This document shows, one piece after another, positions 8,999 through 38,770 of a stretch of DNA of 64,000 bases (its first letter is position 1; every line of letters begins with the position of its first letter). The DNA is from Gemmatimonadota bacterium. GTDB taxonomy: Bacteria > GCA-2686955. The DNA is taken from NCBI GenBank assembly GCA_002686955.1, contig NYZA01000120.1, forward strand, positions 12,719-76,718, in the 5' to 3' direction. A program made the translations under genes and the position numbers. Below the pieces are notes generated by a model. The model worked only from the letters and a program-made list of their open reading frames with translations. It searched no databases and was not told the origin of the DNA.

Positions 8999-9447
8999 TG
9001 GCGATCCACCTGGCGTCAGATGCAGGTGTTTCCGACTATGAGATCAACACGAGCGATGTTGAGCGAGCGCTGAATCTCGTGCTGGAGGGAGAGAGACGGG
9101 ATTCAGAGCCCACGATCGACGTCGTTCTGGGAAGCGACGATCTGCTGGCCAGGCTTAACGAAACCTATCGAGGAAAAGCCGGCTCGACGGACGTTCTCTC
9201 ATTTCCACTGATGGATGGAGTGAAGGCACCCAATGATCTCTTGCTCGGCGAAATATATATATCGCTGCAGATGGCGTCCGAGCAGGCACGAGATACCGAC
9301 ACTTCGCTCGAAGTGGAACTCGCACGATTGGTAATCCACGGTGCGTTGCATCTCTTCGGCTATGATCATGTTAGTGACGAAGACGCTCAGATCATGGAGC
9401 CGCTCGGGGACCGATACCATACCGCTTGGAGGAACGGAGCGCCGTGA
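8998..9447 (+). CDS. ybeY: rRNA maturation endoribonuclease YbeY
   Basis: A 149-residue zinc-dependent single-strand endoribonuclease acting in 16S rRNA 3'-end processing. The UPF0054 signature HGALHLFGYDH near residue 114 supplies the three zinc-binding His residues, and the conserved GSTDVLSFP comes earlier. The length is typical. The ATG overlaps the pgpH stop and the stop overlaps the GTG of the next gene, so it sits inside a tightly coupled operon with phoH, its usual partner. Confidence 0.95.
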   Translation: MAIHLASDAGVSDYEINTSDVERALNLVLEGERRDSEPTIDVVLGSDDLLARLNETYRGKAGSTDVLSFPLMDGVKAPNDLLLGEIYISLQMASEQARDTDTSLEVELARLVIHGALHLFGYDHVSDEDAQIMEPLGDRYHTAWRNGAP

Positions 9448-10748
9448 CGGAGATGACCTCAATTCTGTTCGGCGCAGGCTCCGTTGTCGTTCTGCTCGGA
9501 CTGAGCGCGGTCTTCAGCGGCTCCGAAACGGCGATCATCTCATTGTCGTCAAACGACGTGGATCGCCTTCCCGACGAAGAGGGGGCGAGTGGGAAGGCGA
9601 TCGCCGAGCTGCGAGAGGATCCTACACGTTTCTTGGTGGGGGTGCTTTTGGGCAACACACTCGTAAACGTTGCGGCCTCGTCGGCGGCTGTTGGGCTTGC
9701 GCTGGCCGCCTGTGAGCTGGGAAACCTGCCTCCTTGGACCGGCGTCGTGGGCACGGTCGTGGTGATGCCACTTGTGCTGCTGGTGTTCGGTGAAGTGACT
9801 CCGAAGTCGATGGCGTTTTCGAATGCGCGCCGATTTGCTCTAAAGACCGCGGTCCCCGTTCATATATTCTTCCGCCTCTGTTCGCCACTGATCGGCGCTC
9901 TCCACCGACTTACGCGCCTCGGAAGACTCGTGGGGGGCCCAGGCGCGATCTCGTCGCCGGAAGAGATTCGCACTCTCTTGAGGGTCAGCGATGAAGAGGG
10001 GCTCATCGATTCCGACGAGCGTGAGTTGATCGACTCGGCGGTCGAGCTATCCGAGACACTCACGCGGGAGATCATGGTGCCTCGGCCCGATATGAAGGCA
10101 ATCGAAGTGACCGCTTCCCACGCCGAGGCGCTCGACATGATCGATTCCTCTCGCCTTTCGCGCTTGCCGGTTTACCGGGAGAGCGTCGATCAGATCATCG
10201 GCGTACTGCATGCCAAAGACCTGCTTCAATTCATCAACCGAGAAGACGAGTTCGTGCTGGAGGGAACGATTCGTCGCGCCCATTTCGTGCCGGAAGCGAT
10301 GAGCATCATCGATTTGCTGCAAGCCATGAAGGGCTGGAGCTCCCAGATGGCGGTTGTCGTGGACGAATACGGCGGCACATCGGGGCTGGTGACGCTCGAA
10401 GATGTACTTGAGGAGCTCGTCGGCGAGATATGGGATGAACATGACGAGGAAGAGGTTCTCCACGAATTGTTGGGCGATGGATCGATCGTGGCCGATGGGC
10501 GGATGAGCGTGGACGATCTCTCGGAGTTGGTCGGCGTCGACCTCGAGGGGGAAGGGTACGACACTGTCGGCGGGTTGATTCTCGATCGGATCGGAGATAT
10601 TCCGAAAGCTGGGCGGATTCTGAACGAGCGAGGCGTCACATTTCTAGTTGAAAAGGTAGTGCGAAACAGAATCAGGCGAGTGCGCGTCACATTGCCTGAA
10701 GCCGACGCGGTCGTTGATTCGGAGAAGGGCGAAAGGGGGGCGCCGTGA
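9444..10748 (+). CDS. CNNM/CorC family transporter-like protein, first copy
   Basis: A 434-residue membrane protein with an N-terminal CNNM (DUF21) transmembrane domain (about 1-170), a pair of CBS domains (about 190-320) and a C-terminal CorC_HlyC domain (about 340-425). Typical motifs are FSGSETAIISL, RLPVYRESVDQIIGVLHAKDLL and VVDEYGGTSGLVTLEDVLEE. Bacterial relatives (CorB/CorC, MpfA) are linked to Mg2+ export or tolerance, but older annotations call them hemolysins. The GTG at 9444 overlaps the ybeY stop and has GGAGG at 9428-9432; an in-frame TTG at 9426 is less likely. A paralogue follows at once. Confidence 0.9.
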   Translation: MTEMTSILFGAGSVVVLLGLSAVFSGSETAIISLSSNDVDRLPDEEGASGKAIAELREDPTRFLVGVLLGNTLVNVAASSAAVGLALAACELGNLPPWTGVVGTVVVMPLVLLVFGEVTPKSMAFSNARRFALKTAVPVHIFFRLCSPLIGALHRLTRLGRLVGGPGAISSPEEIRTLLRVSDEEGLIDSDERELIDSAVELSETLTREIMVPRPDMKAIEVTASHAEALDMIDSSRLSRLPVYRESVDQIIGVLHAKDLLQFINREDEFVLEGTIRRAHFVPEAMSIIDLLQAMKGWSSQMAVVVDEYGGTSGLVTLEDVLEELVGEIWDEHDEEEVLHELLGDGSIVADGRMSVDDLSELVGVDLEGEGYDTVGGLILDRIGDIPKAGRILNERGVTFLVEKVVRNRIRRVRVTLPEADAVVDSEKGERGAP

Positions 10749-27917: not shown

Positions 27918-30900
27918 TCAGGTCCGTTTCACAGAGACTTCGAGGGTCTTCCCATCGATATCGAAGGCGGAGGGGGCGTCCAGGGGTGCATCGAGCCATC
28001 GCTCCACCAGCGCCTCTCCGGCTATGTAGTCATCGAAGCGCTCGGCCGCCCGCAGCAACGCGGGATCACCCCCGAGATGAACCGCGATCCGTTCGACGTA
28101 CCCAAGATCCAGCTCTTTGCGGAGATTCTGCATCCGATTCACGATCTCCCTAGCCAGCCCTTCCTCGCGCAAATCGTCATCGAGATCGGTGTGCAATGCC
28201 ACGACGGCGACCGCCGACCCGGCGGCTTGAAAATGCTCCCGCGCCTGGACCTCTACGAGCACGTCATCGGGGCCCAGGTTGACCGCGGAGCCATCCGGCA
28301 GCTGCAGCTCCAGCCCTCCACGGAGGGTTTTCGCCCGCACTTCCGACGCGGGCATCGCCGCCAGCGCCGCCGCGCATGCCTTCACGCCACCGCCCAGCCG
28401 GCTGCCCAACGATTTGTAGTTCGGCTTGACTCGAAACTCCACGAAACGATCAGCATCGGAGGCGAAGTGAACTCGGCGTACATTCAGCTCTTCGGTGATC
28501 AAGCCCAGCATCGGCTCGAGTGAGGGCGCACGATCCCCGTCGGCCAGGACGACTTCGATCGCCGACAGCGGTTGACGCACCCGCACACCGACCTTCTTAC
28601 GCGCAGCCAAGGCAAGGCTGGTGATGTCGCGAACGAGTGCCATGTCCTGCGCCAGTGTCTCGTCGAGCAAGGCGCGATTCGGCTCGGGATAGGGCGTGTG
28701 GTGCACGGACTCGGGCGAATCGGGCTTCGGTCCTCTCACTAGATCGAGATAGAGCGCCTCCGCCAGGAAGGGCACGAATGGGGCGACGATCGCGGCGAGA
28801 TCGGTCAGCACTTCGTAAAGGGTCCACAGCGCATCGTCGGACTCCTTCCCCTCGGTCCAGAAGCGGCGTCTCGAACGCCGTACATACCAATTCGCCAACC
28901 CCTCGACGAAGCGTTGGATGTCCCGTGCCGCCTCGTAGAGTAGGAAAGCGTCCATTCGCTCCACTACGCGTTCGTTGAGCGCGGCGAGCTCGTGGTGAAT
29001 CCAGCGATCGAGTAGCGATCTCTCGGCCACGGCTCGAGGTGGAGCTTTCGTAGGATCGAAGCCGGCAATGTCGGCGTAGATGCAGAAGAAGGTATGGACG
29101 TTTTTCAGCCTCATCAAGAACTCACGTTGCGCGTTGCGGACCGCTCGTAGCGACAATCGAGTTCCCGAGCCGGGCGGGTTCGCTGAGTAGAAGAGCCAGC
29201 GAAAAGCGTCCGCCCCTGGCGCATCGAAGGGCGCCTTGAGAGTGACAGTGTCGCTCAGCCCAAGGTCCTTGATATCGTCGGGATGCAGGTGAACAGTGTC
29301 TTTCGTGGTAACTTCAGCCTGGACGACCTCGAGTGGACGTTCCGAGACGCCGTTCCTTCCGAGCGCGGTCATCCGCTCCTTCGAACCCAAGCTCAGCGAC
29401 TTCACCTGCGCCTGCATGAATCCGACTTGCCCCGGTGCGAGCTTCTCATCGGCAGCGACATTGAGGCGTGTGCGACCAAGCATCACCAAATCGGGACTGG
29501 TGTAGTTGCCCTTCGACTTCGATTCCTTTTTGCCGTCGGTGTCGGTGATATGCCCCAGCACGATGCAGGTCCTATAGGGGCGCGGGAAGCCGGGGGTCTC
29601 CAGTCCGAACTCCGAGCAGGTCTCTTCATCGAAGAGAAGCGTGGAGATCATTAGAAGGGAGTAGAACCATCCGCGTGTTTGGTCAACCGCCTCAGCTATG
29701 AAATCCGCGGGGAAGTTCGCCGCGAACGGCTCTTTTCCTTTATGGGGAAATCCCCATTGCGCGAAAGGCATGCAGCCGGCATCGAACCAACAGTCGATGA
29801 CCTCGGGCACGCGCGACATCTCTCCGCCGCAAGATCGGCAGGGCAGTTTCACGCCATCGATCCAGGGCCTATGCAGCTGCAGATGCTTATCCACGGCCGA
29901 ATCGAAGGCATCAGGATTCAGAGCCAGGATCTCCGCGGCGGAGGCCGGAGCGGTGCTTTCGCCGCATGCCCCGCATACCCAGATATTCAGTGGCGTTCCC
30001 CAGAACCTCTCCCGCGACAATGCCCAATCAACGTTGTTTCGAAGGAAGTCCCCGAATCGACCGTCTCTGATGTGTTCGGGGATCCAATTAACCGCGGCGT
30101 TGTTCTCGAGCGCCTCGCGATTGAGAGCTGTGGTGCGCACGAACCAAGCCGGCCGAGCGTACTGTATCAGCGGATCGTCCTCGGCTCTCCAGCAGAAGGG
30201 GTAGTCGTGACGCATGGTCTCTCGTTTGAAGAGCAGTCCCCGATTCTTTAGGTCGCGAATGATGTCTTTGTCGGTGTCCTTGCAGAAGCGTCCCTCGAGA
30301 AAGCCGGTTCCTTCGACGAAGTTCCCGTTGGGTGCGACGAGCTGGAGCATGCCCATGCCTTGCTCTTTTGCGATTCTGAAATCGTCTTCACCGAAAGCGG
30401 GGGCAGTGTGGACAAGGCCGGTGCCTGCATCGAGCGTCACATGCATGCCCGCAATCACCTTCCATTTGTCTCCACCAGTCGGCTCGGCGAACTCGTAGAG
30501 CGGTTCATAGCGCAATCCCGTCAGTTCCGCGCCAAGCACTGTCTTTTCGACTTTGCCCTCAACTTGATCTTGTCGTTCAGAAGCGACGATCAGCAAGTCG
30601 TCACCACAGCGGACGTAGGCGTATTCAAGCTCTGGATGAACCGATATCGCCACGTTCGACGGCAGCGTCCAAGGTGTCGTAGTCCACGTCAAAAGGTAAG
30701 TGTTTGGTTCATCAGTGACACGAAAGCGAACCGTGATCGATGGATCGTCGACTTCTCGGTAGCCCTGGCCGACCTCACCCGCGGAGAGCGTCGTTCCGCC
30801 CTGGGGCCACCACCAGACCACTTTGTGCCCTCGATACAGCAGCCCCTTTTCGAATAGACGGGACAGCGCCCACCATACACTTTCGACGTACTCTCGATGG

Positions 30901-31343
30901 TAGGTGACGTACGCTTTGTCAAGGTCGACCCAGAAGCCGGAGCGCTCCGTGAGTTGCTCCCAGTCGCGTGTGTAGGAAAAGACCGATTCGATGCATTTTC
31001 GCGCGAAAGCCTCGATTCCATACGCTTCGATCGCTTCGCGCCCATGGATTCCCAGCGTCTTTTCGACTTCTACTTCGACCGGTAGGCCGTGTGTATCCCA
31101 ACCGGCCTTGCGGTCGACATGGTAGCCGCGCATCGTCTTGTATCGGGGAAAGAGATCCTTGATGACACGGGTGAGTACGTGCCCGTTGTGAGGTGTGCCG
31201 TTCGCGGTCGGTGGGCCTTCATAGAAGACGAAGGAGGGGCGCCCTTTGGTTAGTTCGAGACACTTGTGGAATATGTCGTGTGTTTTCCAGTAGTCCAGGA
31301 CTTCCGACTCAAGTGCATGAGGAGGTTTCAGCTCACGGAACAT
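27918..31343 (-). CDS. ileS: Isoleucine--tRNA ligase, with insertion after KMSKS
   Basis: Class I synthetase of 1141 residues charging tRNA-Ile, similar in layout to the eukaryote-like IleS type. HIGH is PHNGH (51-55), the editing domain contains GTGLVHTAPAFGEDD, zinc-knuckle Cys pairs occur at about 457-460 and 502-505, and the KMSKS equivalent is KKESKSKGN (605-613). Between this motif and the conserved PGADAFRW (709-716) lie about 95 residues, where family members usually have about 15-20. The anticodon-binding and C-terminal domains follow normally. GAGGGG upstream supports the ATG. The gene starts 10 bp after the rmlB stop. Confidence 0.95.
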   Translation of the reverse strand: MFRELKPPHALESEVLDYWKTHDIFHKCLELTKGRPSFVFYEGPPTANGTPHNGHVLTRVIKDLFPRYKTMRGYHVDRKAGWDTHGLPVEVEVEKTLGIHGREAIEAYGIEAFARKCIESVFSYTRDWEQLTERSGFWVDLDKAYVTYHREYVESVWWALSRLFEKGLLYRGHKVVWWWPQGGTTLSAGEVGQGYREVDDPSITVRFRVTDEPNTYLLTWTTTPWTLPSNVAISVHPELEYAYVRCGDDLLIVASERQDQVEGKVEKTVLGAELTGLRYEPLYEFAEPTGGDKWKVIAGMHVTLDAGTGLVHTAPAFGEDDFRIAKEQGMGMLQLVAPNGNFVEGTGFLEGRFCKDTDKDIIRDLKNRGLLFKRETMRHDYPFCWRAEDDPLIQYARPAWFVRTTALNREALENNAAVNWIPEHIRDGRFGDFLRNNVDWALSRERFWGTPLNIWVCGACGESTAPASAAEILALNPDAFDSAVDKHLQLHRPWIDGVKLPCRSCGGEMSRVPEVIDCWFDAGCMPFAQWGFPHKGKEPFAANFPADFIAEAVDQTRGWFYSLLMISTLLFDEETCSEFGLETPGFPRPYRTCIVLGHITDTDGKKESKSKGNYTSPDLVMLGRTRLNVAADEKLAPGQVGFMQAQVKSLSLGSKERMTALGRNGVSERPLEVVQAEVTTKDTVHLHPDDIKDLGLSDTVTLKAPFDAPGADAFRWLFYSANPPGSGTRLSLRAVRNAQREFLMRLKNVHTFFCIYADIAGFDPTKAPPRAVAERSLLDRWIHHELAALNERVVERMDAFLLYEAARDIQRFVEGLANWYVRRSRRRFWTEGKESDDALWTLYEVLTDLAAIVAPFVPFLAEALYLDLVRGPKPDSPESVHHTPYPEPNRALLDETLAQDMALVRDITSLALAARKKVGVRVRQPLSAIEVVLADGDRAPSLEPMLGLITEELNVRRVHFASDADRFVEFRVKPNYKSLGSRLGGGVKACAAALAAMPASEVRAKTLRGGLELQLPDGSAVNLGPDDVLVEVQAREHFQAAGSAVAVVALHTDLDDDLREEGLAREIVNRMQNLRKELDLGYVERIAVHLGGDPALLRAAERFDDYIAGEALVERWLDAPLDAPSAFDIDGKTLEVSVKRT

Positions 31344-32466: not shown

Positions 32467-33420
32467 TCAAGTCACATCCAGCACCGCGGCCTCGAGCCCC
32501 CGCCCGCGCCGAACCTCCAGAACCGGCGCTCCGGCATCCAGCAAGATGCGTAGCAGCGAAGGGATCGTGCCGATGTCGTTGGGATCGAAGCTGACCACGA
32601 GGGCATCCGCGCCCTCGGTCCAGTCGATCGCCCGAACGCTCCCGTGGTCGCCGATTCCTTGTCGAAGAGTCTCCACTTTCTCGCGATCGGTGCCCTGCGT
32701 CCAGCCGCCGGCGAGCACGAAGCGGACCTCGGCGTGAGATCTCGTGAGCACGGCCATGTCGCCTTCGTCAACCACCGCACCACCGCGCAGAATAGCGGCT
32801 CGGTCGCAGAGGGATTCCAGCTCGGCCAAGTTGTGACTCGAGACCAGTATCGTGGATCGGCCGCTGAGCGCGTCGATCGTTCGCCGTACGAGCGCGGCCG
32901 CTCTCGGGTCGAGGCCATCGGTCGGCTCGTCGAGAAGGACCAGCTCCGGCTCGCCCAGAAACGCCTGGGCGAGCCCCACTCGGCGCGCCTGGCCATGGCT
33001 CAGGGTCCCGATTCTGGCCCCTGCTTCATCTCTCATCCCGGTCTTTAGGAGTGCCTCGTGGGCAGCCTCTTTGGCGAGATCCGGCGTGAGGGCCAGGAGA
33101 CGAGCACAGTCTACTAGAAAGCGCGACACACTCTCGTGCCCCGGCAGTCGTGCCCCTTGGGGGAGCACCCCGATGCGCCCGAGCAGATCCTTGCGGCGTT
33201 GCGGCAGCTGTCGGCCGAACACCCGCACGACCCCCGCTCCCGGGCGCAGGAACCCACTCAGGATGCCCAGGAGGGTTGTCTTGCCCGCTCCGTTCGGCCC
33301 GATGACGCCGTAGACCAAGCCCTCCGCGACCCTGAGATCGAGACCCGCGAGCGCACGCACGGCCCCGTAGCGTTTCTCTAGGGCGGTCGCCTCGACCGCC
33401 CAATCAACCCGCTCAGACAT
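32467..33420 (-). CDS. ABC transporter ATP-binding protein
   Basis: ATPase subunit of an ABC-2 type exporter, 317 residues. Walker A GPNGAGKTTLLGIL, signature LSHGQARRVGLAQ, Walker B LVLLDEPTDGLDPRA and switch His in ILVSSHNLAELE. About 90 residues after the core form a C-terminal accessory region. The ATG at 33420 overlaps the permease stop by eight bases, so the pair is translationally coupled. The substrate is not predictable. Confidence 0.9.
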   Translation of the reverse strand: MSERVDWAVEATALEKRYGAVRALAGLDLRVAEGLVYGVIGPNGAGKTTLLGILSGFLRPGAGVVRVFGRQLPQRRKDLLGRIGVLPQGARLPGHESVSRFLVDCARLLALTPDLAKEAAHEALLKTGMRDEAGARIGTLSHGQARRVGLAQAFLGEPELVLLDEPTDGLDPRAAALVRRTIDALSGRSTILVSSHNLAELESLCDRAAILRGGAVVDEGDMAVLTRSHAEVRFVLAGGWTQGTDREKVETLRQGIGDHGSVRAIDWTEGADALVVSFDPNDIGTIPSLLRILLDAGAPVLEVRRGRGLEAAVLDVT

Positions 33421-34261
33421 CGCGCCGCTCGAGTGCCACCGCGGCCGCCCCCAGCAGACCGAGCGCGAAAGCAGCATGGATCGCGGTTCCGCCCACGACC
33501 TGGTCGGGGATCAAGAGTCGGCGCCAATGCGCATATGGAGCCAGGAGCGAGAAGTCGAACGAGACGGCTTCGGGTCCGGCGATCCAGACAAGGAAACCGA
33601 AGACGAGTGAGAGCACGCCGAAGAGAAGGGCAGTTCCGGGGCTCGAAGCCACGGTCGAAATCAGGATCGCAGCGCCGACGAAGACTGATCCGAAGACAAT
33701 ACCGACAAACCAGTAACGGAAGATGTGTGGGAGTGTCGCGATCCACCCGGGCTCTACTTCCCGAATCGCACCAAGAGCCAGCATGGCCATGGCGCACGCC
33801 CCCGTGAGCATCGAGAGCAGAGCGATCTGGCCCAGGGCCTTCCCTGCGAGATAGCTGGTGCGCCCGCAACGCGTCAATGTGTAGCGGATCGACCCCGACC
33901 GCAAATCATCCGCGATCGAGTCGTACGCCATAAGGGTTGCGAGGAGCGGTAGCGACAAATAAGAGGTCACCAAGAAAAAGAGTGCTGTCGCCGGCACGCC
34001 GGCCATCGCCCCCGCGAGCTCTCCCCCGGCTCCTTGGCCGAGCAGGTCGAACAATGAAGGCGCTTCGTTCCCACTCCCGAATCCGAGGAACGAGACGGAG
34101 AGATGGAACGTATCCTGCGCTCCGCTCAGGATCTTGGCGAGTATGTTGCCCCAGAATAGATAGAAGCCCAGATAGAGCGCGGCCAGCACCAAGCCACGCT
34201 TGCCTCGCATGACGCGTTTCGATTCCGCCCGGCACACGATCAGGCAGTGAAGCGCGTTCAT
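33413..34261 (-). CDS. ABC-2 type transporter permease
   Basis: A 282-residue membrane protein with six predicted transmembrane segments and the ABC-2 layout: a cytoplasmic N-terminus, a large loop after the first helix, then SIADDLRSGSIRYTLTRCGR, the typical ABC-2 motif before helix 3. Coupled with the ATPase downstream and starting 14 bp after the NfnAB-rubrerythrin gene, so all three may be one transcript. The cargo is unknown. Confidence 0.85.
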   Translation of the reverse strand: MNALHCLIVCRAESKRVMRGKRGLVLAALYLGFYLFWGNILAKILSGAQDTFHLSVSFLGFGSGNEAPSLFDLLGQGAGGELAGAMAGVPATALFFLVTSYLSLPLLATLMAYDSIADDLRSGSIRYTLTRCGRTSYLAGKALGQIALLSMLTGACAMAMLALGAIREVEPGWIATLPHIFRYWFVGIVFGSVFVGAAILISTVASSPGTALLFGVLSLVFGFLVWIAGPEAVSFDFSLLAPYAHWRRLLIPDQVVGGTAIHAAFALGLLGAAAVALERRDV

Positions 34262-34275
34262 CTCGATCGCAACAC

Positions 34276-37245
34276 CTAAAGGATCCCCGGCTTGCCCTGC
34301 GCGAAGCGGCGAAATCCCGTTGCCAACAGATCGATGTGTTCGATCTCCTCCGCCTCGAGCTCCTGGTAGAGCGTAAATGCGGGAGAGTCGGGGTCAAGCT
34401 TCTCGCGTTCTTGGGCGAAGAAGTCTCGTGCCCTCTCTTCCAGATGGATCGCCAGTTTCAGCACATCGATGCCGTCGTTCAGCGGCTCATCGAAACCGGA
34501 GTAGACGGCGACCTGAGCAGCTGTCATTCGTGCGCCTTCGACCCTCTCGGGCGGATCGACATGGTAGCGAAGCGCCAAGGTCTCCGCGTGCTCGCGCTCC
34601 ATGACGGCCAGACGCCTGAACAGCTCTCCGAGCTCCGCGTCGTCGACCTCGTCGGCATGGCTCTCATAGAAGGCGGCCGCACCCAGCTCGATCTCGAAGG
34701 CCTGCCGGATCGCCTTCATCGCGTCTGCGTCGGTCGCCTCGGCGCGCTCGTGCTCTTCTTCGACCGACATCGCGCCTCCGCAGACCGGGCAGAGACCGAA
34801 GGGGAATGCGAAGCCCTCATAGACTTTCTTGCAGCTCTCGCAGTGCCAGGTCAGCTCGGTCTCGGCGCAGCAGACATAGGTTTCGCGCCCCTCGAGTGGG
34901 CGGTGACACCGACTGCATACGAACGACATTTTGCTCTCATCGACCACATCGGCGTCTTCCAGCTCCGGAGCGTGCCATTCCCAGCGCTCGAGGTACTCGG
35001 CGATCGCCGCGGCTGCTCGGCGCCCGGCTCCCATCGCCAGAATTACCGTGGCTCCTCCGGTCACGATATCGCCGCCCGCGAACACACCTTCGATATTGGT
35101 GGCCTGCGTTTCAGGATCGGCGACGATGTAGCCGTTGCCTCTTGTATTCAAGTTGGGCGTGGATTGGGCGATGATCGGATTGGCTCGCGTGCCGAGCGCA
35201 TAGATCACCGTGTCGCACTCGATCGTCTCGATCTCGTCTTCGACCGCCCGCGGGCGCCGGCGGCCGGAATCGTCCGGCTCACCGAGCTCCATTACCTGGC
35301 AACGCATGGCCCGTACATCTCCCCCGTCTTCCGTTACGATCTCGATCGGACTGCGCAGCCAATGGAAGTGGATCCCCTCTTCCTCTGCGTGGCGCAGCTC
35401 CTCCAGGCGCGCGGGTACCTCCGCCTCGGTTCGACGGTAGACGCAGTGAACCGACTTCGCCCCCAGGCGCCGCGCGACCCGCAGGCAGTCCATCGCCGTA
35501 TTCCCGGCGCCGATCACCACCACGCGAGGCCCCATCGCCACCGGAGTGTCTTCCAGCGGGAACTGGTCGCCTCGCATCAGATTGACGCGCGTCAGAAACT
35601 CGTTCGCGCTGTAGACCTGCCCCGCGAATTCGCCGGGGATGCCGAGGAATACCGGGAATCCGGCGCCGGTCGCGATGAACACGGCGTCGTAGCCCATCTC
35701 GCCACGGAGCTGCGCGATGGAGAAGGTCTTGCCAACGATCTTGTTGAGCTCGATCTTCACGCCGGCTCGCTCCAGGCAGCCCAGCTCCTGCGCGATCACA
35801 CGCCGGGGGAGCCGGAACGCCGGGATTCCGTACGAGAGCACCCCCCCCGCCACGTGGAGCGCTTCGAAAATCGTCACCTCCGCCCCTCTTCGCGTCAGAT
35901 CGGCGGCGCAGGCGAGGCCACCCGGTCCCGATCCGACGATCGCCACCCGACCGGTCGATCTCCGGTGCTCCCCCGAGCATTTCAGGGGGCCCGCCGCATG
36001 GTCACCGACGAAACGCTCCAGCCGCCCGATCGCCACGGGCTCGACCTTCTTGCCGATGATGCACTGCGCCTCGCACTGGCTCTCCTGGGGGCAAACCCGC
36101 CCGCAGATCGACGGGAAGACATTCGCTTCTCGAATCACCGACAAGGCCCCGTCGATGTCTCGCACGACCACGTGGCGGATGAACCTGGGGATGTCGATCG
36201 AAACCGGGCAGCCGGCGACGCAGAGGGGGCGCACGCACTGAATGCAACGCTCCGCCTCGGTCACGGCGTCGGCCATGCCGTAGCCGAGGTTCACCTCCTG
36301 AAAGCTGGAGACCCGTTCTGCGGCGGGCCGTTCGGGCATCGGAATCGCCTTGGGAGGCAGGTCCTTGATCTTCTTGTAGTTCCGTTTTTCATGCCGGAAG
36401 AGCTCGGTCTCGATATTGCAAATCCGCGCGTAGTCCTCCTCCGCGTGTTGCTCGTGTCGTTTGAAGCGCTGCTGCCGGAGCATCAGCTCTTCGAAATCGA
36501 CCACGTGGGCGTCGAACTCGGGGCCGTCGACACAGGCGAAACGCACTTCGTTATCGACGGTTACACGGCAGGAGCCGCACATTCCGGTCCCATCGACCAT
36601 GATCGCGTTGAGGCTCACGACCGTTCGTATGCCGCTCTCGCGCGTGACCTCGGCGCAGGCCCGCATCATTGGCAGGGGGCCGACCGCCACCACCAGATCG
36701 GGTGGAGTTTCGGCGGAGATGACGTCGTGGAGCGCTTCGGTAACGAAGCCGGAGCGGCCGTACGATCCGTCGTCGGTGCAGACGATCAGTTCATCGCTGT
36801 GCGGGCCGAATCGATCTTCCCAGAAAACCAGGTCCTTCGAGCGGAATCCGATTATTGAGGTCGTCCGATTCCCCGCTTCGTGGAACGCGCGGAGTTGGGG
36901 GAAGATCGGTGCCACGCCCAGTCCCCCACCCACCAGGACCACATGCCCGACCTTCTCGATCTCACTCGCAAGTCCCAAGGGTCCGGCGAAGTCGGCCACC
37001 GTGCTTCCGGCATTGTAGTCATTGAGCATCTTTCGCGTGCTCTTGCCCACGGCCTGAACGACGATCGTAATCGTGCCCGCCTGCTCGTCATAGTCGGCGA
37101 TTGTGAGGGGAATCCGCTCGCCGCCCTCGTCGAGACGGACGATCACGAACTGCCCGGGCAGCGCCGATCGGGCGACATCGGGAGCATGCACGAGCCAGCG
37201 GAAAGTCGTGTCGGAGAATTGTTCTTTTTCGAGAATCTGGTACAT
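34276..37245 (-). CDS. NfnA-NfnB-rubredoxin-rubrerythrin fusion oxidoreductase
   Basis: One 989-residue chain with four modules. (1) Residues 1-250, NfnA-like ferredoxin:NAD(P)+ reductase subunit: FAD/NAD fold and a [2Fe-2S] site with Cys223, Cys226 and Cys238. (2) Residues about 265-755, NfnB/GltD-like subunit: [4Fe-4S] Cys residues in CIQCVRPLCVAGCP (334-347) and CGRVCPQESQCEAQC (381-395), FAD loop VGSGPGGLACAADL and NADPH loop VIGAGNTAMDC. (3) Residues 775-825, Cys pairs at 777/780, 792/793, 802/805 and 819/822; the last two pairs look like a rubredoxin knuckle. (4) Residues 840-980, rubrerythrin-type diiron domain with ExxH at 883-886 and 967-970. Modules 1 and 2 are commonly separate genes. 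The ATG at 37245 matches family N-termini; the frame extends 40 codons further without a ribosome site. Inferred role: NAD(P)H-driven peroxide reduction or bifurcation. Confidence 0.88.
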   Translation of the reverse strand: MYQILEKEQFSDTTFRWLVHAPDVARSALPGQFVIVRLDEGGERIPLTIADYDEQAGTITIVVQAVGKSTRKMLNDYNAGSTVADFAGPLGLASEIEKVGHVVLVGGGLGVAPIFPQLRAFHEAGNRTTSIIGFRSKDLVFWEDRFGPHSDELIVCTDDGSYGRSGFVTEALHDVISAETPPDLVVAVGPLPMMRACAEVTRESGIRTVVSLNAIMVDGTGMCGSCRVTVDNEVRFACVDGPEFDAHVVDFEELMLRQQRFKRHEQHAEEDYARICNIETELFRHEKRNYKKIKDLPPKAIPMPERPAAERVSSFQEVNLGYGMADAVTEAERCIQCVRPLCVAGCPVSIDIPRFIRHVVVRDIDGALSVIREANVFPSICGRVCPQESQCEAQCIIGKKVEPVAIGRLERFVGDHAAGPLKCSGEHRRSTGRVAIVGSGPGGLACAADLTRRGAEVTIFEALHVAGGVLSYGIPAFRLPRRVIAQELGCLERAGVKIELNKIVGKTFSIAQLRGEMGYDAVFIATGAGFPVFLGIPGEFAGQVYSANEFLTRVNLMRGDQFPLEDTPVAMGPRVVVIGAGNTAMDCLRVARRLGAKSVHCVYRRTEAEVPARLEELRHAEEEGIHFHWLRSPIEIVTEDGGDVRAMRCQVMELGEPDDSGRRRPRAVEDEIETIECDTVIYALGTRANPIIAQSTPNLNTRGNGYIVADPETQATNIEGVFAGGDIVTGGATVILAMGAGRRAAAAIAEYLERWEWHAPELEDADVVDESKMSFVCSRCHRPLEGRETYVCCAETELTWHCESCKKVYEGFAFPFGLCPVCGGAMSVEEEHERAEATDADAMKAIRQAFEIELGAAAFYESHADEVDDAELGELFRRLAVMEREHAETLALRYHVDPPERVEGARMTAAQVAVYSGFDEPLNDGIDVLKLAIHLEERARDFFAQEREKLDPDSPAFTLYQELEAEEIEHIDLLATGFRRFAQGKPGIL

Positions 37246-38209: not shown

Positions 38210-38770
38210 ATGCGAAGCACCACGACAATCATGACTTTGGCCGCACTGGCGTTCTCGGCGTCCACAGCCACGGCGTATACGTTTTGGGGCACCAAGGACG
38301 GCAATGGGCGGATGGACTGCTCCGCCAACACCGGCTACCAGAGCGGCGAGTACTCTGCGATCGAGCGCGGAGCCATCTCCTGGATCAACGTCTCCTGCTC
38401 CTCATTCCAGTTTCGCAGGGATTCTCCCCTCTTGATCAACCGAACGGTCCCGAGGCGCGATGGAAGCAACCACATCATCTTCGGCGACGCCGACGGCGCG
38501 CTGGCCGTTACCTGGTTGATGAACAATTCCTCGAGTCGCGAATGCGACATGATCTTGGAGAACAACATCAACTGGAACAACGGGCCCGGACCCTCGGGCT
38601 GGAACCAGTACGACCTCGAAGGTGTTGCCTGCCACGAGTTCGGCCATTTCCTCGGGCTTGGTCACTCCAACACAGCCGCCGCGACGATGTACTACGCGAT
38701 CGGTTCTGGCGACGACTCCAAGCGCTCGCTCCACAGCGACGATCAGAACGGAGTCTGCGCTCTGTACTAG
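38210..38770 (+). CDS. Secreted matrixin-like metalloprotease
   Basis: Metzincin of 186 residues with a signal peptide (about residues 1-22). The zinc site HEFGHFLGLGH matches HExxHxxGxxH and the Met-turn is in AATMYYAIGSG. It is the short, prodomain-less M10-like type. AGGAGG lies just upstream of the ATG, and the gene follows the small exported protein by 25 bp, so the two form an operon. A strong hairpin terminator follows. Confidence 0.88.
   Translation: MRSTTTIMTLAALAFSASTATAYTFWGTKDGNGRMDCSANTGYQSGEYSAIERGAISWINVSCSSFQFRRDSPLLINRTVPRRDGSNHIIFGDADGALAVTWLMNNSSSRECDMILENNINWNNGPGPSGWNQYDLEGVACHEFGHFLGLGHSNTAAATMYYAIGSGDDSKRSLHSDDQNGVCALY

Follow-up and report, generated by a model that had tools for sequence, protein, structure and literature searches.

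A divergent PRK12775-family protein joining NfnA and NfnB to a rubredoxin-like and diiron tail, a candidate NAD(P)H-driven O2/H2O2 reductase

The window, a 64,000-nucleotide stretch of contig NYZA01000120.1 from a Gemmatimonadota bacterium, carries on its minus strand (the strand was left unstated in the earlier sequence-only reading) an open reading frame of 989 codons uninterrupted by a stop (34276–37245). Translation probably begins with the ATG at 37245, because homologues start at a MYxI motif; an alternative in-frame GTG would give a product of 1029 aa. Pfam domains in the 989-aa protein were DHODB_Fe-S_bind (residues 213–249), Fer4_20 (312–417), and Pyr_redox_2 (433–740), with a weak match to Rubrerythrin at 846–974 (25.6 bits; cut-off, 22.8 bits). 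Genes for an ABC-2 permease and an ATPase (32467–34261) begin on the same strand 15 bp past the end of the fusion gene and possibly form an operon with it. These ABC transporter genes have no obvious link to the fusion gene, and oxidative-stress genes were not found among the neighbours in the window. The window further encodes a small secreted protein (38210–38770) with HEFGHFLGLGHS, read from its sequence as a matrixin-like zinc protease motif, and an isoleucyl-tRNA synthetase-type gene (27918–31343); a gene of the latter type also occurs near the fusion in a Myxococcota-side relative (L105, 2207–5506), which may be a coincidence.

The N-terminal three quarters of the protein correspond to NfnA and NfnB. 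The NfnA-like module (residues 1–275; 36421–37245) consists of an FNR-type FAD/NAD(H) domain, with ERIPLT at residues 43–48, and a [2Fe-2S] site, while the NfnB-like module (residues 300–755; 34981–36348; 494 bits to 4ylf_B) has two [4Fe-4S] sites, a bifurcating-type FAD site, and NADP(H) loops. The ligands D218, C223, C226, and C238 of the [2Fe-2S] site (36532–36594) and C334, C337, C342, C346, C385, C391, C395, and E410 of the [4Fe-4S] sites (36016–36246) were invariant in all 28 sequences compared, as was R478, which aligns with the flavin-N5 Arg187 of Thermotoga maritima NfnB. We take E410 to be a cluster ligand from the homologous position in the structures of Nfn and dihydropyrimidine dehydrogenase. 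The set that defines NfnI (an Asp and three Cys for [2Fe-2S], two [4Fe-4S] clusters with one Glu ligand, and the N5 arginine) is thus present in full, and every cofactor ligand of NfnAB/NfnI (5JCA, 4YLF) and of the ‘pattern B’ fused Nfn (PRK12778) is kept, along with the shared motifs DGTGMCGxCRx10CV and ERxPxT. The former motif, here DGTGMCGSCR-x10-CV, is as given in a review of Nfn that distinguishes four structural patterns, A–D (PMC6405883); unlike the window protein, none of these has a rubredoxin-diiron tail. The NfnA part scored 305.8 bits against Pyrococcus furiosus NfnI (5jca_S) and 176.6 bits against Xfn, a difference that points to NAD(H) as its likely partner. Electron bifurcation by the fusion protein appears possible from this complement of predicted cofactor sites.

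Beyond NfnB, the tail opens with a candidate metal-binding motif, CxxC-x11-CC (C777, C780, C792, and C793; 34867–34917), present in 29–30 of 30 sequences, followed by a rubredoxin-like knuckle, WxCxxC-x13-CxxC (C802, C805, C819, and C822; 34774–34848), for which the rubredoxin portion of rubrerythrin 1b71 is a match. The spacing of this second Cys set, CxxC-x13-CxxC, is found in 30/30 sequences, is that of short-spaced rubrerythrin knuckles, and falls within the rubredoxin-type pattern CxxC-x(10–14)-CxxC. The chain ends in a ferritin-like four-helix diiron domain (34300–34728) with the ligands E853, E883xxH886, E936, and E967xxH970. None of the 14 tail ligands (eight Cys and the six diiron residues) differed in more than one of the 30 sequences. 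Only 35 of the 220 columns of the tail reach this level of conservation, and they include all 14 ligands, a pattern that is not due to chance (hypergeometric p = 5e-13). The layout proposed in the sequence-only reading, an FNR-like NfnA with Cys 223, 226, and 238, an NfnB with two FeS Cys sets, four Cys pairs between residues 777 and 822, and two ExxH motifs (883–886 and 967–970), in this order and in one chain, was therefore borne out residue by residue.

The identity given there to the diiron part did not hold. A model of the tail (pLDDT 76.5) placed the E, ExxH, E, and ExxH elements in sequence on four long helices, the arrangement of COG1633/ferritin-like diiron domains, and a fold search with this model matched ferritins, which ranked first, bacterioferritins, and the COG1633 protein 2oh3. 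The top 50 matches of this search included no rubrerythrin, an absence that is no evidence against such an identity. Among solved structures, 2fzf gave the best sequence-profile match to the tail (8.8e-12). We know of no function for the COG1633 proteins 2fzf and 2oh3. The class was instead decided by a residue test, in which the tail was aligned with three canonical rubrerythrins (one of them encoded in the genome of the window), one reverse rubrerythrin (L124), and two COG1633-type proteins. At position 939, the extra Glu of the helix C ExxE motif is present in the three canonical rubrerythrins, while 28 of 30 family sequences have Ala, and at position 856, the extra Glu of the reverse-type helix A ExxE motif is present in the reverse rubrerythrin, while the family has Ala, Gly, Ser, or Thr. 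The COG1633 proteins share the residues of the family at both positions and have neither extra Glu. With a profile of the diiron domain of the family, the COG1633-type proteins scored 58.7 and 48.2 bits, and no rubrerythrin exceeded 18.5 bits.

Both the canonical and the reverse rubrerythrin were rejected on the residues at 939 and 856, not on the fold search, and the diiron domain resembles the COG1633/ferritin type, with a predicted site of four Glu and two His. The term rubrerythrin is thus not supported for this part, with Ala at 939 and the better scores of the COG1633-type proteins. Of the suggested resemblance to reverse rubrerythrins, the position of the knuckle ahead of the helix bundle stands, but the extra Glu at 856 is missing. 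The family shares with rubrerythrins and reverse rubrerythrins the combination of a rubredoxin-like knuckle and a diiron four-helix bundle, but lacks the helix-C and helix-A Glu, so that the mechanism of rubrerythrins should not be assumed to apply unchanged. It shares with 2FZF and 2OH3 the E / ExxH / E / ExxH set, though these COG1633 proteins stand alone, without the eight-Cys relay. The genome of the window separately encodes a canonical rubrerythrin, in which the rubredoxin domain is C-terminal (L118; G000:C26:5642-5989). One fused homologue (L059, 8983–9618) lacks E936, E967, and the first CxxC/CC motif and keeps the rubredoxin-type knuckle.

The architecture is already known to annotators. 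The NCBIfam model NF009413 (PRK12775) covers residues 1–989 of the window protein over model positions 1–1006 (1493 bits), an identical whole-length architecture, while the next-best match, the two-part fused Nfn model PRK12778, covers residues 1–753 only. The score falls short of the curated equivalog cut-off of 1895 bits, which a homologue from Terasakiella sp. PR1 (L058) equals exactly and which L059 also fails to reach (1401 bits). On sequence grounds, the window protein is a divergent member of this catalogued family, a relative of the same architecture and not a certified equivalog. The title of the model, ‘putative trifunctional 2-polyprenylphenol hydroxylase / glutamate synthase subunit beta / ferritin domain-containing protein’, misdescribes the parts of the protein, and a literature search on the PRK12775/NF009413 family found no relevant paper.

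In a bacteria-wide draw, the junction was found in 2 of 386 genomes, that of the window and its family sister. A scan of genome contigs recovered the fusion in Terasakiella sp. PR1, a Deltaproteobacteria MAG (labelled Myxococcota in the tree), and the Gemmatimonadetes sister MAG. The tail was present in 16/248 genomes of the Terasakiella order and in 12/235 genomes from the phylum of the Deltaproteobacteria MAG. In all, 23 fused copies, including that of the window, occur in separate Rhodospirillales-type, Myxococcota, and Gemmatimonadota genomes. The four-part order thus recurs in full-length homologues from distant bacteria, and these independent genomes rule out an assembly join or frameshift as the origin of the fusion; the other outcome that would have undone the sequence-only reading, loss of the C-terminal Cys and ExxH residues among homologues, is contradicted by their retention in at least 29/30 sequences. 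The fusion is the sole match to the tail profile in the genome of the window, which therefore has no second copy. The viral contigs searched held no relative of the fusion protein, and the plasmids searched held no full-length match.

In six genomes, an NfnAB-fusion gene is followed directly by a stand-alone rubredoxin-diiron gene, and this coexistence of fused and operon forms indicates that the Nfn part and the tail belong together. When the NfnAB part was analysed by maximum likelihood, all 29 sequences fell in one clade (support, 100/99), apart from tail-less fused Nfn. Five of the split genes form a group (support, 86/71) nested within the fused Rhodospirillales-type clade, a placement that points to their origin by fission of a fused gene, while the sixth (L115) is the deepest, on a long branch. 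At L093, the NfnAB and tail genes are in the same frame with a stop codon between them (9445–9478), which looks like a recent fission. A stand-alone tail gene (L113, 9420–10199) was also observed with no nfnAB nearby and with complex I-type subunit genes upstream.

Gene neighbourhoods vary between lineages, with no conserved neighbour pointing to a substrate pathway. The sister MAG has an OsmC-like gene 13 bp downstream of the fusion gene, with a VIT1-family gene and a peroxiredoxin close by. Five of the six split loci (L091, L093, L099, L100, and L101) lie inside nif clusters (nifV, nifW, nifQ, modC), with the focal genes at about 6.8–10.1 kb (0.7–3.6 kb for L101). At L100, the gene pair directly follows nifV, which exceeds the cut-off of TIGR02660, and a gene whose best match is nifW, at a score under the cut-off; sequence-similar nifV and nifW occur at L093 and L099 and nifV at L091, and NifQ, an IscA-type gene, and ModC each occur at single loci of the clade. 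In three split-clade genomes, nifH is on the same contig, ~12–14 kb away. Across the 248 genomes of the Terasakiella order, nifH was found in 13/16 tail-bearing genomes compared to 59/232 others (Fisher p = 1.1e-5), and in 8/11 for fused copies alone (p = 0.002), with both p-values inflated by kinship among the genomes. Fused Rhodospirillales genes sit off the nifH contigs in these assemblies, and at two loci (L090, 12408–16668; L102, 12699–16923) the fused gene adjoins apbE and rnfA/B/C. No nifH over cut-off was found in the genome of the window, its sister, or the 12 Myxococcota-side genomes; the nif association is therefore lineage-specific, and was rejected as a universal rule.

The reading that we favour, at roughly even odds, is that of an Nfn scaffold turned into an NAD(P)H-driven O2/H2O2 reductase in a single chain, protecting O2-sensitive chemistry. 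The fused architecture, the ligands, the recurrence, and the operon/fusion linkage are observed, while the bound metals, the route of the electrons, their acceptor, and any retention of bifurcation are inferred. The two flavins of the NfnAB module would oxidise NAD(P)H, the electrons would leave through its Fe-S clusters to the rubredoxin-type Fe(Cys)4 site of the tail, and from there they would pass to the four-Glu/two-His diiron site, where peroxide (or O2) would be reduced to water. Such an enzyme would keep oxidants away from iron-sulfur and flavin chemistry that is O2-sensitive and of low potential. In the nif-linked relatives the protected target would be nitrogenase, and in the others the bifurcating flavoprotein itself. 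This reading is favoured by the complete NfnI cofactor set with its invariant N5 Arg counterpart, the closer match of the NfnA part to NfnI than to Xfn, the conservation of the rubredoxin-type and diiron ligands, the coexistence of fused and split-operon forms, the OsmC-like, peroxiredoxin, and VIT1-family genes near the sister-MAG copy, and the adjacency of relatives to nifV and nifW. There are also precedents. In CperHydR, a hydrogenase is fused to a rubrerythrin, and this chimera, which contains two rubredoxin centres, uses H2 to reduce H2O2 (PMC11926857). For RbrA, PMC6616624 cites Zhao et al. 2007 on a peroxidase that depends on FNR and protects nitrogenase. Like CperHydR, the window protein joins a redox module to a rubredoxin/diiron module in one chain, with two predicted Fe(Cys)4 sites, but CperHydR has a hydrogenase donor module and a true rubrerythrin diiron domain, and its peroxide reduction has been demonstrated while the function of the window protein is predicted. 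Counting against the reductase are the missing Glu of the rubrerythrins, whose peroxidase mechanism is established, the ABC transporter neighbours in the window, and L059, which keeps the fusion despite its lost ligands. A full-length AlphaFold model (pLDDT 51; alignment depth, 4) was too poor for inter-site distances, including that between the rubredoxin site and an NfnB cluster.

As the chief rival, we consider a bifurcating Nfn that mainly yields reduced ferredoxin (or NADPH), destined for nitrogenase in the nif-linked clade, with the tail acting as an O2/H2O2 guard and not as the main electron sink. The retained NfnI ligands and N5 arginine fit this, as do the five split operons in nif clusters, the co-occurrence with nifH, and the rnfA/B/C and apbE genes at L090 and L102, and the Nfn homologue AadN can feed nitrogenase in a Rhodopseudomonas palustris suppressor strain (PMC9973337). 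An electron-draining tail would, however, short-circuit bifurcation unless gated, and the genomes of the window and of the Myxococcota side have no nifH over cut-off. We consider this explanation less likely than the reductase. It is improbable, in our judgement, that both roles are joined in a fifth Nfn pattern, in which NAD(P)H would be bifurcated with ferredoxin on one branch and the rubredoxin-diiron tail as high-potential acceptor for H2O2/O2 on the other, recruited in some diazotrophs (as nifV-nifW-nfnAB-tail operons) to power and protect nitrogenase; if true, oxidant removal would directly pay for low-potential electrons.

The remaining alternatives turn on the tail itself. Flavin and [2Fe-2S] reductases serve diiron oxygenases, and the E / ExxH / E / ExxH set would suit an oxygenase or hydroxylase in which NfnAB is the reductase and the tail oxidises a small molecule with O2, as in COQ7 and desaturases; this is a long shot, with neighbours that vary by lineage giving no hint of a substrate pathway and a rubredoxin-type relay ahead of the diiron site being typical of rubrerythrin-like peroxidases. 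The chance is about as slim for a sensing or structural role, with Zn in the Cys sites and a tail that does no more than regulate the Nfn part. Eight Cys in four pairs are compatible with zinc ribbons too, and L059 retains the second Cys set after losing two diiron ligands, but the diiron ligands are retained in 29/30 sequences. Slimmest of all is the case for iron handling, with a ferritin-like tail that binds or oxidises iron and an Nfn part that reduces it, the task that ferredoxin and FNR perform with bacterioferritin. The ferritins and bacterioferritins among the best matches of the tail model and the VIT1-family gene near the sister-MAG copy speak for it, but with one tail domain per 110-kDa chain a 24-mer cage is unlikely, and an eight-Cys electron relay is foreign to ferritins.

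Should the tail work as proposed for the NAD(P)H-driven reductase, bacteria would possess a self-contained NAD(P)H-to-peroxide/O2 enzyme derived from an electron-bifurcating flavoprotein. The pairing of such a flavoprotein with a peroxide module has so far only been predicted, for another enzyme family, Rub-Bfu, in which a bifurcating flavoenzyme and a rubrerythrin-type protein would use H2O2 as a third substrate (PMC9304861). Both functions are predicted and both systems pair a bifurcating-type flavoenzyme with a rubredoxin/diiron module, but Rub-Bfu has a BfuBC core and separate genes, while the window protein has an Nfn core in one chain. A correct description of the PRK12775 family would by itself change database annotations, the current title being misleading. 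What is new is the link of this family to nitrogen fixation in one clade, where its place in nif clusters makes it a testable candidate for joint electron supply and protection of nitrogenase from oxidants in microaerobic diazotrophs.
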